A stretch of 58,731 nt of DNA from an uncultured bacterium (lineage in GTDB: Bacteria > Vulcanimicrobiota > Vulcanimicrobiia > Vulcanimicrobiales > Vulcanimicrobiaceae): NCBI GenBank assembly GCA_903829325.1, contig CAIKPM010000030.1, positions 1 through 58,731 of the forward strand, in the 5' to 3' direction. The notes under the pieces are model-generated. The model was not told the DNA's origin. It searched no databases and saw nothing but the letters and a program-made list of their open reading frames with translations. The position numbers were made by a program, and so were the translations under genes. Shown piece by piece: positions 27,402 through 41,600 of this stretch (its first letter is position 1; each line of letters begins with the position of its first letter).

Positions 27402-27453
27402 TCGATTATGTAAAAGGCCTTCTTTTTATGAAGAAGGCCTTTTACATAATCGA
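27402..27453. terminator. bidirectional terminator, 23-bp perfect stem
   Basis: Arms 27402-27424 and 27431-27453 are perfectly complementary around a six-base loop. A- and T-rich ends let it work in both directions, for the cyclophilin gene on the plus strand and the chemoreceptor on the minus strand. The right arm includes the last codons and the stop codon (27442-27444) of the chemoreceptor. Confidence 0.85.
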
Positions 27454-36363: not shown

Positions 36364-37509
36364 GTGAGCGAGGAACGCCTTGATCTCACGGTGACGCTCG
36401 ATGACGCGTGCATCGCCTGGCAGCCTTTGCACGAGGCCCTCGAAGTTGTCGACGAAGCTGGCTTCGTGCCGCACCGCTTCCACGCGCTGGCTGAACGCGA
36501 GCTCGCGCGCGTCGAGGCCGATTTAGGCACGACCCTCGGGGTTGCTCTGTCGATCGGGGGAGGCTGGCTGATCGAGCGCAAGACCGAGGCGCCCGCGGTG
36601 GGCGTGCCGCAGTTGCTTGGTTGTGCCGGCTATCATGGCGAGGGCGATCGTGGCATCGTCGGCCCCTTCCACCTTGATGGTGAGCTGGCGGCGACGCGCT
36701 TGACGATGTTGCTGGCGGCCTTATTTTCTTTGCGCGAGCGGGGCTATCGACGCGCGCTGATTCCGGGGGTCAAGGCGAGCGCCTTGCCGGCGATCCGCGC
36801 TTTTTTGGGTGGCGCTATTGTGGCGCAGCAGGCCTCACCGGCGCCGACCCGACCTCGGGTGGTGGTCTGTGCGTCGGGCAATGGATCGAATTTTCAAGCG
36901 GTCATCGATGCTGCTGCTTCGGGGAATCTGGCGCTGGATATCGTGAGTCTCGTGACCAACCGTCGCAACGCTTTCGCCCTCGAGCGTGCACAGCGCGTGG
37001 GGATCGCTAGCCAGGCCTTGGTCTGGGAGCGCGGCCGCGAAACCCGCGCCGAGTTTGACGCCCGGGTGATTGCGGCGGTTGCGTCCGCCGCGCCTGATCT
37101 GGTGTTGTTGCTCGGCTGGATGCATCTCTTGCCGCTGGAATTTGTCACCGCTTTTCCCGCGTGCTACAACATCCACCCGGCGTACTTACCGCTCGATCCG
37201 CGGGCTGAGCGCGTCACCTTGCCCGATGGCTCGAGTCAAGCCGCGTTTCGCGGTGCGCACGCCGTTGATGACGCGCTGGCGGCGGGAGCCAGCTGGATCG
37301 GCGCGTCGCTGCACGCCGTGACCGAAGACGCCGACCGAGGCCGCATCCTCGCCCGCGCCCCGCTCGCACTACGCCCCGACGAATCGCGCGAGCAGCTCGA
37401 CGCGCGCTTGCACCAGCTCGAGCATCGCGTGTTACTGGAGGGGCTACGCGATGATTACCGCGCTAATTGGACTCGTAAGGACGCCGCGGCGGTTTCAATC
37501 GAGCCATAG
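36364..37509 (+). CDS. purN: PurN with an N-terminal GNAT-like domain
   Basis: A 381-residue fusion starting with GTG, six bases after purM. Residues about 163-365 are glycinamide ribonucleotide formyltransferase, which adds the second formyl group in purine synthesis: VVVCASGNGSNFQAVIDA binds the nucleotide, YNIHPAYLPLDP holds the Asn and His, and VTEDADRGRILA the acid. About 155 residues precede it, longer than any normal PurN. They resemble a GNAT acetyltransferase: GIVGPFHLDGELAATRLTML, RERGYRRALIPGV and FLGGAIV follow the expected strand-helix order. The fusion is seen; the GNAT reading is inferred. The end overlaps the convergent ATPase by 55 bp. Confidence 0.85.
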   Translation: MSEERLDLTVTLDDACIAWQPLHEALEVVDEAGFVPHRFHALAERELARVEADLGTTLGVALSIGGGWLIERKTEAPAVGVPQLLGCAGYHGEGDRGIVGPFHLDGELAATRLTMLLAALFSLRERGYRRALIPGVKASALPAIRAFLGGAIVAQQASPAPTRPRVVVCASGNGSNFQAVIDAAASGNLALDIVSLVTNRRNAFALERAQRVGIASQALVWERGRETRAEFDARVIAAVASAAPDLVLLLGWMHLLPLEFVTAFPACYNIHPAYLPLDPRAERVTLPDGSSQAAFRGAHAVDDALAAGASWIGASLHAVTEDADRGRILARAPLALRPDESREQLDARLHQLEHRVLLEGLRDDYRANWTRKDAAAVSIEP

Positions 37510-38849
37510 AGATCATCTGCGCCGAAACCTGCGGTAAGTGGTGCGGTAATGGGAGCCGGTGCATTTCGGCCAATAATCAGGCGAGGCACGTCGAGATTCA
37601 GATTCAGCGCTTGAATGTGGCCTTCGAGATTGGCGATGACGCGCTGATCGATGGGCTGTTTTTGCCATTTGACGGTGCCATAAAATGTCGGGTGATGGTT
37701 CTGCGCACCGACAATATCGATTTCGTTTTGACCATCCGACGATTGCCAATAGCCGACATCGTCTGCGCTGAGAACGCCATTAGTGACTAATTCATAGGCA
37801 AATTCGCGCGCTATGTCCTCATAGACTTGCCCCATATGATCATCAAGCAGGGGCAGAATCTGCGACTCAACCACCCCACGACCAAGCCCCCGCTCAATTT
37901 GACTGCGATGAGGGAGAATAAATCGAAACCAGAAGCGGAGATTCGGGTCGGGAATTCGGTAGCGTACTCGGCGCGAACGTAGCGCATCTTCGGTAATCGG
38001 TACGCGGCGTTCGAGCAAGCCTATCGTCACGAGCTGAGTAATCGCGCGATCGTGGACTTTTGCAAAATCGCGAATCTCGGCCCAGCGTGTCTTTCCAAAT
38101 GCGACGGCTTGGAGAACACGGTACGCGCTGCGAGCATCGTTCAAGGTTGTCGTCAACATGCGATCGGGTGCGTCAATGAGGGCACTCAGCGAGTCGCCAA
38201 ATAAGCGCATGACGTTATCGCGAAACGAAGCTTGTGTCTCCCACTGATCGAGATAAAAAGGCGTTCCACCTAATAAGCCATAGACCAAGGCTTTCTCTTC
38301 GCTCGAGAGGTCCGGGACAAATTCTGCTGCTTCACGATACGACAACGGTTGGACACCTAAGCGTGCGGTAAATCGTCCGTATAAGGGGGCCGCATGCATA
38401 TCCAATTCGTTCATAAAAGTCTGTGCTGACCCGCACAAGATCAGCATGATGTGCGAGTGCCGTCCTTTGTGATCCCACCAGCGTTGGATGAGCGAGGGGA
38501 GGCCTTTGGTTGATTCGCAGAGGTTGGGAAATTCATCGAGGACGACAACTAAGCGTTTACCCGTTGCGTAGTCGCTCAGGGCCTCAAGAGCGACTTCCCA
38601 GTTTGGAAAGTTCACCCCGGGAGGCAAACGCAGGAGTGAGCGTACGAAGTCCGAGAACGCCGCGAGCTCTACTTCGGCTGCCTGCTGAGTTGCTTGGTAA
38701 AAGATTGCCTGCTTGCCCGTAATGAACTCTTGGAGCAAGTAGGTTTTGCCAATGCGTCGACGGCCATACATCAACACCAATTGTGCGCTGGAACGTGCCC
38801 AAAGCTGCTCAAGCTTCAGCAGATCTTGCTTGCGGCCAAGAAATCTCAC
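37455..38849 (-). CDS. ATPase with DUF234-like C-terminal domain
   Basis: A 464-residue protein of the archaeal-ATPase/DUF234 family, common in bacterial mobile regions. The GTG at 38849 gives FLGRKQDLLKLEQL at the N-terminus, which fits the family. A TTG at 38960, overlapping the glnA stop, is an alternative with 37 extra residues encoded across a hairpin. Walker A is YGRRRIGKTYLL, Walker B LVVVLDEFPNLCES. The C-terminal domain ends with the nuclease-like NEIDIVG, reminiscent of a PD-(D/E)xK fold. The GGAGG before the GTG lies inside a 24-bp inverted repeat. Function in such proteins is unknown. Confidence 0.85.
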   Translation of the reverse strand: MRFLGRKQDLLKLEQLWARSSAQLVLMYGRRRIGKTYLLQEFITGKQAIFYQATQQAAEVELAAFSDFVRSLLRLPPGVNFPNWEVALEALSDYATGKRLVVVLDEFPNLCESTKGLPSLIQRWWDHKGRHSHIMLILCGSAQTFMNELDMHAAPLYGRFTARLGVQPLSYREAAEFVPDLSSEEKALVYGLLGGTPFYLDQWETQASFRDNVMRLFGDSLSALIDAPDRMLTTTLNDARSAYRVLQAVAFGKTRWAEIRDFAKVHDRAITQLVTIGLLERRVPITEDALRSRRVRYRIPDPNLRFWFRFILPHRSQIERGLGRGVVESQILPLLDDHMGQVYEDIAREFAYELVTNGVLSADDVGYWQSSDGQNEIDIVGAQNHHPTFYGTVKWQKQPIDQRVIANLEGHIQALNLNLDVPRLIIGRNAPAPITAPLTAGFGADDLYGSIETAAASLRVQLAR

Positions 38850-38913
38850 CAAACAACCTCCACGCACTGGAGGCTCCAGGGTTTGGAGGCTCCAGTGCGT
38901 GGAGGTTGTTTGG
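38849..38913 (-). promoter_or_regulatory. 24-bp inverted repeat over the ATPase ribosome binding site
   Basis: Arms 38849-38872 and 38890-38913 are perfectly complementary; an inner CTCCA/TGGAG pairing shortens the loop further. On the ATPase transcript the downstream arm contains GTGGAGG, the ribosome binding site eight bases before the GTG start. The fold would bury it. Translation would then need unfolding, for example by ribosomes arriving from glnA or by an RNA-binding factor. It might instead be the trace of a mobile repeat. Confidence 0.75.
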
Positions 38914-38956: not shown

Positions 38957-40393
38957 TCAATACCTCCGCAGGTAGGTTTTGCGTTCCCAGGGGTGGACCG
39001 CGCGGCGGTACGCTTCGTATTCGCGGATTTTTGCATCGTGGAAAGCGTGGTAGATGTGGTCACCGAGGGCGTTACGGATGACGGTATCGTGGGCGAGTTC
39101 GTCGAGGGCTTGCCGCAGCGACTTGGGCAGGTGGCGGATGCCGCGCTCGATTTTTTCTTCTGCGGTCAGCTCGTAGGTGTTACCGATGAGCGCCGCGCCT
39201 GGCAATTGTTTGGTGCGGAAGCCATCGACCATACTCGCGACAAGAACGCCGAGCGCGAGGTAAGGATTACAGGCCGGGTCGGGGCTGCGCATCTCGAGCT
39301 TGATTGACCCGGTGGTGTTGGGGAGACGGACGAGGGCATTTGCGCTGCGTTGGGACCAGACGGTATACACCGGCGCATCCCAAGCGGTGACTAAGCGCTT
39401 ATACGAATTGACCAAGGGGTTGCAGATGGCTGTGCACGCTAGTGCGTGAGCGAGCAAGCCGCCGACACCGTAGAGGCATTCATCCGGTTCTTCATGCCGG
39501 TCATGCAGAAACGCCTGGAGTTCTTGTGCGTCGAGGTCGAGCTGCTCGTCGAGCGCGTAGGCACTGGGTTCTAGCGGGAAATCGGGCGGGGTTGGTTCGG
39601 GCGATGGAGGCTCGGCGTGTTGCGGGCGATCGGTGCCCCAGTGGAAATAAAAATGCAGACCGCTCCCGGCCGAATTCTCGATCGGTTTCGGCATAAATGT
39701 GGCATGGATGCCAAAACGCGCGGCGACGCTTTTGGCGACCAGGCGCAGGGTAAAGAGCTGGTCGGCGGCGCTGAGGACACTCGTCGCGCTGAGGTCTATT
39801 TCGTGCTGTCCGGGGGCATGCTCGTGGTGCGCTGCAGAAATCGCGATACCCATGTCTTCAAGGGCGTTGACGATCGCCGTGCGGGCCATTTCTCCGCGAT
39901 CACTGACCGAGACATCGAAATACGAAGCGACATCATCGGTACGCGGAATATCGTCGGTGAGCGCGTCGAAGAGATAAAACTCGACCTCGATGCCGGTGCG
40001 TAAGTTGGGCAAAATTTCGGCGGCATCGTCGAGGATGCGTCGCAACGTCGTGCGGGGGCAACCTTCAAACGGTTCGCCGTCGGGCATGGCGATATCGCAA
40101 ATCAGACGGCCTTCGGGCACCGCGCCGTCGATCCGCGGCAAGAGCGCGAAGGTGCTTGGATCGGGGCGCAAGATCATATCGATTTCTTGATCACGGACAA
40201 AACCGTCGATCGAGCCACCGTCAAACGTGACCTGACCGTTGAGCGCCTTATCGAGGTCGGCGAGCGGAATGACGATGCATTTGCTCGCCCCGAGCACATC
40301 GGCAAAAAAGAGACGAATTTGACGTACGCCCGCGGCCTGGGCTTGAGTTCGAATGCGATCAATGGCGGCCTGGTTATTCTTTTTATTAGGCAT
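38957..40393 (-). CDS. glnA: glutamine synthetase, type I
   Basis: A 478-residue ammonia-assimilating enzyme joining glutamate and ammonium with ATP. The ATG at 40393 lies inside the end of the regulator gene. FEGCPRTTLRRIL, GIEVEFYLFD, HEHAPGQHEIDL, GSGLHFY and NPLVNSYKRLVTAWDAPVY are conserved active-site segments. A Pro/Glu-rich insert of about 40 residues (RPQHAEPPSPEPTPP and on) follows the flexible Gly-His motif. The usual adenylylation tyrosine motif is not evident, suggesting feedback or transcriptional control. It is co-expressed with the PucR-type regulator upstream. Confidence 0.93.
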   Translation of the reverse strand: MPNKKNNQAAIDRIRTQAQAAGVRQIRLFFADVLGASKCIVIPLADLDKALNGQVTFDGGSIDGFVRDQEIDMILRPDPSTFALLPRIDGAVPEGRLICDIAMPDGEPFEGCPRTTLRRILDDAAEILPNLRTGIEVEFYLFDALTDDIPRTDDVASYFDVSVSDRGEMARTAIVNALEDMGIAISAAHHEHAPGQHEIDLSATSVLSAADQLFTLRLVAKSVAARFGIHATFMPKPIENSAGSGLHFYFHWGTDRPQHAEPPSPEPTPPDFPLEPSAYALDEQLDLDAQELQAFLHDRHEEPDECLYGVGGLLAHALACTAICNPLVNSYKRLVTAWDAPVYTVWSQRSANALVRLPNTTGSIKLEMRSPDPACNPYLALGVLVASMVDGFRTKQLPGAALIGNTYELTAEEKIERGIRHLPKSLRQALDELAHDTVIRNALGDHIYHAFHDAKIREYEAYRRAVHPWERKTYLRRY

Positions 40394-41600
40394 AGAGTGT
40401 ATCAATCGCGATAGCAGCACGGAGGGTTAATTGGTCGTGCGGAGAGTCTAAGTTGAGTCCGCTAATTTCGGCTATTTGCCGCAGACGGTAAAAGACGGTG
40501 TGGCGATGGACATTTAATTCCGCTGCTGCCGTCTTTACGTTTTGACCTACTGTAAAATACAGCGCGAGGGTGCGGATCAATTCGGTTTGGTGTTTCGCAT
40601 CGTAGCTGCGTAATTTTTCGAGAATGTGTTCGCTGAGGCGATGCCAGTCTTCACGCGAACTTGCACCCCGTAAAATAAATGGGTATATGCCGAGTTCTTC
40701 GTGGGTAATGACGCGACCGATTCCAAAGAGGCGGCGGGTAATAAACATTGCCTCGCGCGCTTCTTCGACGGTGCGCGCCGCGTCGATCGCATCGGCGTAG
40801 CGGCCCACGCCTCCGACGAGTTTCGCCCCTACGAGCGTCTTGCTCGCGATGCGGGGAATGAGCCCGGCGGCGGTACGGGTGTTCGCGACGTCAACTTCCA
40901 GCGGTGCGGGGCACAGGAAGACAAAGCCGCTCCCTCGCTCCACGACGACAATCTCAGCGCTGCTACTGCGCAGTGCCTCGAGGCAAATACGGCGCAAATC
41001 AGCGTGTTTTGACGTTGCGGAATTTTCGTCGAGCCCCTCGGCTTCAATCGCTACCGCGACATAGCCGCTCGCAAGCGTAATACCGCGTGAGGTCGCGTCG
41101 TCTTTGGCTTCAATCGGATCTTCATACGCACGGGCGAGAAGTCGATCCCAAAACGACTTGCGACGATTTTTGTTGCCGCCTTGTTCGCGCGAGAGTTCGA
41201 TCGCGAGGCTGGTTGCCGCTAGGCGGGCGAACGCCGAATCGGTTTCGCGCAGCGTCTGATCAGGGAAGATCGATAAGCGTCCCAACAGCGAATCGCCTGC
41301 TCTGATTGGGAATGCGATGCCTTCGCGATTGCCTGGCAACGAAAAATGCATCGCACCGCTGGCGGTCGTGTGACCTTTCCCGAGCAGATCGCGTGCCGAG
41401 GCAGGAACCGTGCGACCAGTTGCACCGGAGAGGGCGAGATGACGCCACTCGGCATCTTCGACTAACACCGCCGCTTCGATGTGCTGAGCTAAGTGTGTAG
41501 CCAAAGCTTTAATCCCCCCACCTGAACACGCAATGCGGGTTAATTCTTCGGAAAATATTAAGACGGCTTCCGTTGTGGTCGCGGTCGCTGTGTCAACCAT
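40386..41600 (-). CDS. PucR/CdaR-type transcription regulator
   Basis: A 404-residue regulator. The C-terminal 60 residues are a PucR-type helix-turn-helix: VKTAAAELNVHRHTVFYRLR followed by EISGLNLDSPHDQLTLRAAI. The N-terminal part (about 1-140) looks GAF-like, and the centre resembles a degenerate nucleotide-cyclase-like module, as in CdaR and PucR proteins. It overlaps glnA by eight bases and is transcribed first, so it probably tunes glutamine synthetase to nitrogen supply. The ligand is unknown. Divergent from the small membrane protein at 41639 with 38 bp between. Confidence 0.88.
   Translation of the reverse strand: MVDTATATTTEAVLIFSEELTRIACSGGGIKALATHLAQHIEAAVLVEDAEWRHLALSGATGRTVPASARDLLGKGHTTASGAMHFSLPGNREGIAFPIRAGDSLLGRLSIFPDQTLRETDSAFARLAATSLAIELSREQGGNKNRRKSFWDRLLARAYEDPIEAKDDATSRGITLASGYVAVAIEAEGLDENSATSKHADLRRICLEALRSSSAEIVVVERGSGFVFLCPAPLEVDVANTRTAAGLIPRIASKTLVGAKLVGGVGRYADAIDAARTVEEAREAMFITRRLFGIGRVITHEELGIYPFILRGASSREDWHRLSEHILEKLRSYDAKHQTELIRTLALYFTVGQNVKTAAAELNVHRHTVFYRLRQIAEISGLNLDSPHDQLTLRAAIAIDTLYA

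Follow-up and report, generated by a model that had tools for sequence, protein, structure and literature searches.

Tandem palindromes at a fixed spacing before PDC-S27 ATPase genes: a candidate gene-specific operator

The DNA analysed here, called the window, is a stretch of 58,731 nucleotides. On its minus strand a glnA-type glutamine synthetase gene is followed by an ATPase gene, and a long hairpin lies between the two (Table 1). The hairpin adjoins the GTG start codon of the ATPase gene (38849-38847) and also spans the GGAGG of its ribosome binding site. The original prediction, made from the letters alone, described a 24-bp perfect inverted repeat that covers GGAGG and abuts the GTG. It proposed that the repeat acts as a translational switch or is what remains of an insertion.

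Table 1. Features of the locus, with positions in the window
Feature	Position	Strand	Remark
ATPase_2-DUF234 gene (PDC-S27), 464 aa	37455..38849	minus	GTG start; winged helix predicted at residues 239-298
Whole inverted repeat	38849..38913	minus	30-nt arms 38849-38878 and 38884-38913; loop 38879-38883
Unit 4, outer half-site TGGAGGTTGTT	38852..38862	minus	overlaps the ribosome binding site; placed by 16-bp period, by eye
Ribosome binding site GGAGG	38857..38861	minus	7 bases before GTG
Unit 3, full palindrome TGGAGCCTCCA	38868..38878	minus	identical to unit 2; pair scoring and genome unit search
Unit 2, full palindrome TGGAGCCTCCA	38884..38894	minus	pair scoring and genome unit search
Unit 1, outer half-site AACAACCTCCA	38900..38910	minus	placed by 16-bp period, by eye
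glnA-type glutamine synthetase gene	38957..40420	minus	upstream of the ATPase gene; stop 43 bases before the hairpin

The PADLOC profile of PDC-S27 matches the window protein with an E-value of 7.4e-42, and it also matches all 56 aligned relatives. The ATPase_2 domain (PF01637) scores above its cut-off in the window protein, and a DUF234 domain is present as well. By profile, the gene is a member of PDC-S27, a candidate defence family. In the excerpted account of this family, PDC-S27 joins an ATPase to a PD-(D/E)XK-type domain and comprises 3503 archaeal and 4562 bacterial systems; PDC-S27 is a candidate there, and for most such candidates validation is pending (PMC12988326). The nucleotide site of the window protein is intact, with G29, G34, K35, D105 and E106 invariant in all 56 aligned sequences. 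In the DUF234 domain, the PD-(D/E)XK-type residues E344, D378 and K394 are kept. Position 392, in the ExK motif, is an E in 46 of the 56 sequences and a T in the window protein and six close relatives. This E is presumably a catalytic residue, and the nuclease of the window protein's branch may be dead. A scan for relatives with the window protein alone as the query gave no matches. The GTG is the likely start codon, since the proteins of close homologs start there too. The rival start considered in the original prediction, a TTG at 38960, was rejected because the 37 residues that it would add are absent from homologs.

The structure model of the protein is confident (pLDDT 96.4); an earlier model from 5 sequences was weak, and its fold matches were left unused. 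Residues 239-298 form three helices and two strands, and profile positions 210-305 weakly resemble ZitR-type regulators (E 0.007-0.01). The nearest solved structure is 2qen (Z 22.1, rmsd 3.0, 290 aligned), and the next is 2fna (Z 20.1, rmsd 3.4, 285 aligned). NLR-type ATPases and Cdc6/Orc1 follow among the fold matches, with the C-terminal domain barely covered. In sequence, the ATPase resembles TnsC (E 4e-9). The winged helix of STAND/NLR-type ATPases is often structural rather than DNA-binding.

All of the 30 glnA loci have a PucR-type gene next to glnA. Only one of them, the window's own, also has the ATPase gene after glnA (about 1 kb after glnA was covered, in some loci less). The ATPase gene is present as a single copy in the window's genome and in 11 of 98 related genomes. 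This patchiness and the single occurrence after glnA indicate that the ATPase gene was most likely acquired.

The arms of the hairpin are 30 nt long, 97% complementary and 5 nt apart. From the outside in, the stem has 24 perfect pairs, then a single C-C mismatch, then another five pairs; the 24-bp perfect repeat of the original prediction is thus its outer part, and the coordinates bear out its position over GGAGG and against the GTG. The folding energy of the region is -67.9 kcal/mol (z -7.9), and none of 200 shuffles is equally low. When the whole window was dinucleotide-shuffled 30 times, the longest repeat of this sort measured 10-15 bp. In the unshuffled window, the second-longest one begins at 27402 and measures 24 bp. 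It forms a hairpin of its own (27402-27453, 24-bp arms, 4-nt loop), which is flanked by a cyclophilin-like gene and, on the other strand, a PAS-chemotaxis-like gene (names assigned by eye), and which looks like an ordinary two-way terminator.

A search of the genome for the repeat had been suggested as a check. The 21-base core of the hairpin, allowing up to 3 mismatches, has no second copy in the 1.89-Mb genome, so that the repeat is single rather than scattered. Of the two outcomes that the original prediction named as refuting it, the TTG start is thus unlikely and scattered copies are absent from this genome. A remnant of an insertion sequence was rejected on this single copy and on the lack of a plasmid match. 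The idea of an insertion stands only in part: the gene follows glnA in one of the 30 loci, but the repeat is a single copy and shows no signs of an insertion-sequence end. An Rfam search listed 11 matches, every one under its gathering score, and a known RNA family was therefore rejected at curated scores. The microRNA-precursor names among these sub-cut-off matches look like those that any long hairpin would give.

Read as DNA, the hairpin is an array of short palindromic units. Their order is AACAACCTCCA-CGCAC-TGGAGCCTCCA-AACCC-TGGAGCCTCCA-GTGCG-TGGAGGTTGTT, that is, two identical inner palindromes between two outer half-sites, with a period of 16 bp. The stem's only mismatch is the central C common to both inner units; such a mismatch is unavoidable when an odd palindrome is present as two direct copies. 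The window unit TGGAGNCTCCA has no other occurrence in the 1.89-Mb genome. Two close relatives carry units at 15-16 bp (partly by eye), TGCAACCTGCA/TGCAAGTTGCA in L005 and TGGAACCTCCA/TACAACCTGCA/TGCAGGTTGCA in L006. The best-scoring lag is 16 bp in L007, L132 and L133, and 15 bp in L015.

The array is a recurrent feature of the family. Short palindromes precede most starts in the 5' regions of relatives, and these regions repeatedly show a 15-bp and now and then a 16-bp spacing. The pair score used here rewards pairs of similar 11-bp near-palindromes and is scanned over spacings. The discovery set held 94 upstream regions, from 76 of the 80 relatives' loci, 17 in-phylum loci and the window; four loci (L075, L101, L111 and L121) were dropped by hand for partial or cut starts. 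Among the 92 distinct regions, a pair occurs at lag 15 in 42, at lag 16 in 7 and at lag 30 in 9, and the remaining lags from 11 to 45 give 0-3 each; shuffles average at most 0.6. Pairs at lag 15 were found neither in the gene interior nor in the far upstream stretch. The unit register is picked by best score, which favours good palindromes. A direct-repeat test that makes no demand for a palindrome is independent of register; among the 94 regions, it gives 26 at lag 15, 4 at lag 16 and 6 at lag 30. The score thresholds were set after the first pair scoring of this set. At a score of at least 18, pairs precede the gene in 19 of the 94 loci at lag 15 and in 5 at lag 16, and the other 552 kb of the loci hold 5 and 0. 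At a score of 16, there are 49 matches at lag 15 and 44 at lag 18 outside the upstream regions, which are attributed to coding sequence; even so, such pairs are about forty times as frequent before the gene as elsewhere.

The pattern was first noticed in part of the discovery set, and a held-out set of 45 regions therefore served as the independent test. PDC-S27 copies were located in 25 genomes, which gave 76 start stretches; 29 of these belonged to the discovery set, and another 2 were of insufficient length. The 45 are mostly paralogs of genomes already represented, that is, new genes but not all new genomes. They include L263, L265, L266 and L270, copies that share a genome with one of the haloarchaeal loci L076 and L099. 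The array recurred at lag 15 in 19 of the 45, at lag 16 in 2, at lag 30 in 5 and at lag 45 in 3, with 0-2 at all other lags. Pooled, with duplicates removed, 69 of 137 upstream regions have an array at 15 or 16 bp; the counts in all sets are uncorrected for kinship. Neighbouring spacings give 3 (lags 13/14), 6 (lags 17/18) and 6 (lags 19/20) of the 137. The other 68 regions fall below the array threshold, and so half of the PDC-S27 genes examined are without an array at the threshold chosen. The sister family DUF4143 (PDC-S01) has the pair in 0 of 30 loci at lag 15 and in 1 of 30 at lag 16, a rough control, as a script chose the genes and start codons and several N-termini seem to be misplaced. 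On these counts, rough as they are, an array generic to ATPase genes of such kind was rejected. The window's own genome (G000) has two DUF4143 genes of the PDC-S01 type, near the starts of contigs C16 and C56. In the literature searched, a scope that left out most subscription papers, no description of the array was found.

The unit sequence varies from gene to gene, and its similarity tracks protein identity (Mantel r 0.32, reached in 0 of 5000 permutations, 49 genes). This correlation may stem in part from the common descent of the gene and its leader. Copies within one genome also differ in their unit, as in G173, which has ATATAGTATAT and TTTTATTAAAA. Of 64 bacterial arrays, 22 coincide at least partly with a promoter-like site, with 9.5 expected. 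At the window locus, the promoter scan gave no sigma-70-like promoter.

Two explanations place the function of the hairpin in RNA. One takes it for a terminator or attenuator of glnA, which ends transcripts and lets few pass. The hairpin is a strong same-strand stem 43 bases past the glnA stop, but it lacks a trailing U run, and arrays precede the ATPase gene in many genomes with different neighbours. The terminator scan gives no minus-strand site here, and on that ground we rejected a terminator, which seems very unlikely. The other explanation is the translational switch of the original prediction, in which an RNA hairpin hides GGAGG and GTG and expression requires an opened stem. A variant of it is a read-through lock: transcripts from outside fold, and those started inside do not. 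IS10 and IS50 have a lock of such kind. The ATPase gene is codirectional with glnA, whose stop shortly precedes the hairpin, and the ribosome site of the window is predicted to be fully paired, with an unpaired probability of 0.00 versus 0.25 in shuffles (0 of 200 equally low). The site of L005 is likewise nearly fully paired (2 of 200 shuffles equally low). In L006, by contrast, there is no effect (101 of 200), and family-wide accessibility is 0.38 versus 0.37 in shuffles, for those 49 of the 94 genes in which the script identified a site. Burial of the ribosome site as a family principle was rejected on this comparison. The site is still predicted to be paired in transcripts with a start within the array, down to -25, which argues against a switch of this type; in a transcript from -20 it is paired only in part. 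The switch also leaves the fixed 15-16-bp period unexplained where arrays lie well before the ribosome site. Since pairing shows no family-wide trend, an RNA lock is not why the family carries the repeat. The proposed switch thus survives as a predicted burial in the window and L005, but it fails in L006 and in the family genes. As an account of the hairpin it is rather unlikely, although an RNA translational lock in the window is possible.

A further alternative takes the array for one end of a mobile unit, or for an iteron that serves the ATPase as a replication or targeting site. The patchy occurrence of the gene and its single occurrence after glnA agree with this, as do the likeness of the ATPase to TnsC in sequence and to Cdc6/Orc1 in fold. 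However, the array lies on the 5' side of the gene, strong pairs are rare elsewhere in the loci, the 3' side included, and the region is without a plasmid match. The overlap with promoters and the gene-specific units agree with an operator instead. We regard an element end or iteron as quite improbable.

The array is probably a private operator that acts in cis, bound by the ATPase's own winged helix, with autoregulation as the result. Since the family shares a DNA array of spaced palindromes, the hairpin is most likely mainly an operator, with an RNA effect as a second layer at most or a by-product. In the proposed mechanism, the operator would consist of tandem 11-bp palindromes directly before the ATPase gene, with a period of 16 bp, about one and a half helical turns. 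The ATPase would bind the units as an oligomer through its winged helix, and its own transcription would be held down. As a result, an acquired candidate defence gene would stay quiet until something disturbs the binding. Because unit sequences differ between gene copies, each protein would recognise an operator of its own. The window array touches the start codon and extends into a 30-bp near-perfect dyad, and therefore RNA that continues from glnA into the ATPase gene would enclose the ribosome binding site in a fold, which may add a translational lock on read-through RNA. The promoter overlap of the arrays fits repression by the gene product, by analogy with RptR and AbiEi. Several observations weigh against the operator reading: the 68 of 137 regions below threshold, the negative promoter scan at the window locus, the weak likeness of the winged helix to ZitR-type regulators, and the often structural role of this domain in STAND/NLR-type ATPases.

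Several known systems resemble parts of this arrangement. Archaeal Cdc6/Orc1 proteins are AAA ATPases with a winged helix that bind repeated sites, often beside their own gene, and origin recognition boxes are common to several genes and species. The ATPase matches them in structure; origin boxes are shared, whereas the unit here is private to each gene. For AbiEi and Rv2827c, we know of no shared fixed-period array. In the excerpted report on these antitoxins, AbiEi / Rv2827c exerts negative autoregulation via inverted repeats in its own promoter, as proposed here, but belongs to a two-gene toxin-antitoxin system (PMC7319586). RptR, in the part of its description used here, is a small dedicated repressor in phage defence islands that shuts down its own promoter through tandem short palindromes over the -10 box (PMC12255303). 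The likeness lies in a defence locus whose own protein acts on tandem palindromes, such binding being a candidate activity here. RptR differs in its 6-bp palindrome and 9-bp repeats, compared with a gene-specific 11-bp unit at 15-16 bp, and in being a small repressor, whereas the candidate binder here is the large ATPase itself (PMC12255303). Repeated palindromes lie directly before the candidate regulator's own gene in PDC-S27, as they do in the RptR and AbiE operators. IniR, according to the excerpts of its report, also joins an SSO1545-like ATPase domain to a DNA-binding domain and acts on a promoter. It is an activator with a MalT-like sensor and a C-terminal DNA-binding domain, and unlike IniR the window ATPase has a nuclease-like DUF234 domain after the winged helix (PMC5760070). 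The excerpted PDC-S27 account covers distribution and domains and describes no operator (PMC12988326).

PDC-S27 numbers thousands of genomes, and the array precedes half of the members examined. For each protein the array names a candidate DNA ligand, and it predicts how the gene stays quiet. It also lets PDC-S27 copies in one genome be distinguished by operator. A bolder version, which we hold to be unlikely, has the ATPase parked on its private iteron array, which would be at once the gene's brake and the oligomer's resting place, until intruder DNA or protein pulls the ATPase off. If true, a single gene would make up an immune switch: once released, the oligomer could act, and more ATPase would be made at the same time. 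The spacing of one and a half helical turns would in that case seat an NLR-like oligomer on the DNA of the array.

The genes on both sides of the array have some further peculiarities. The ATPase gene and a purN-like gene share 55 bases at their 3' ends, tail to tail (37455-37509). The window ATPase extends about 14 residues beyond the ends of close relatives, and the gene may have lost its original stop when it arrived. In the glnA protein, some 50 residues (about 263-312) are left out of nearly all alignments with relatives.
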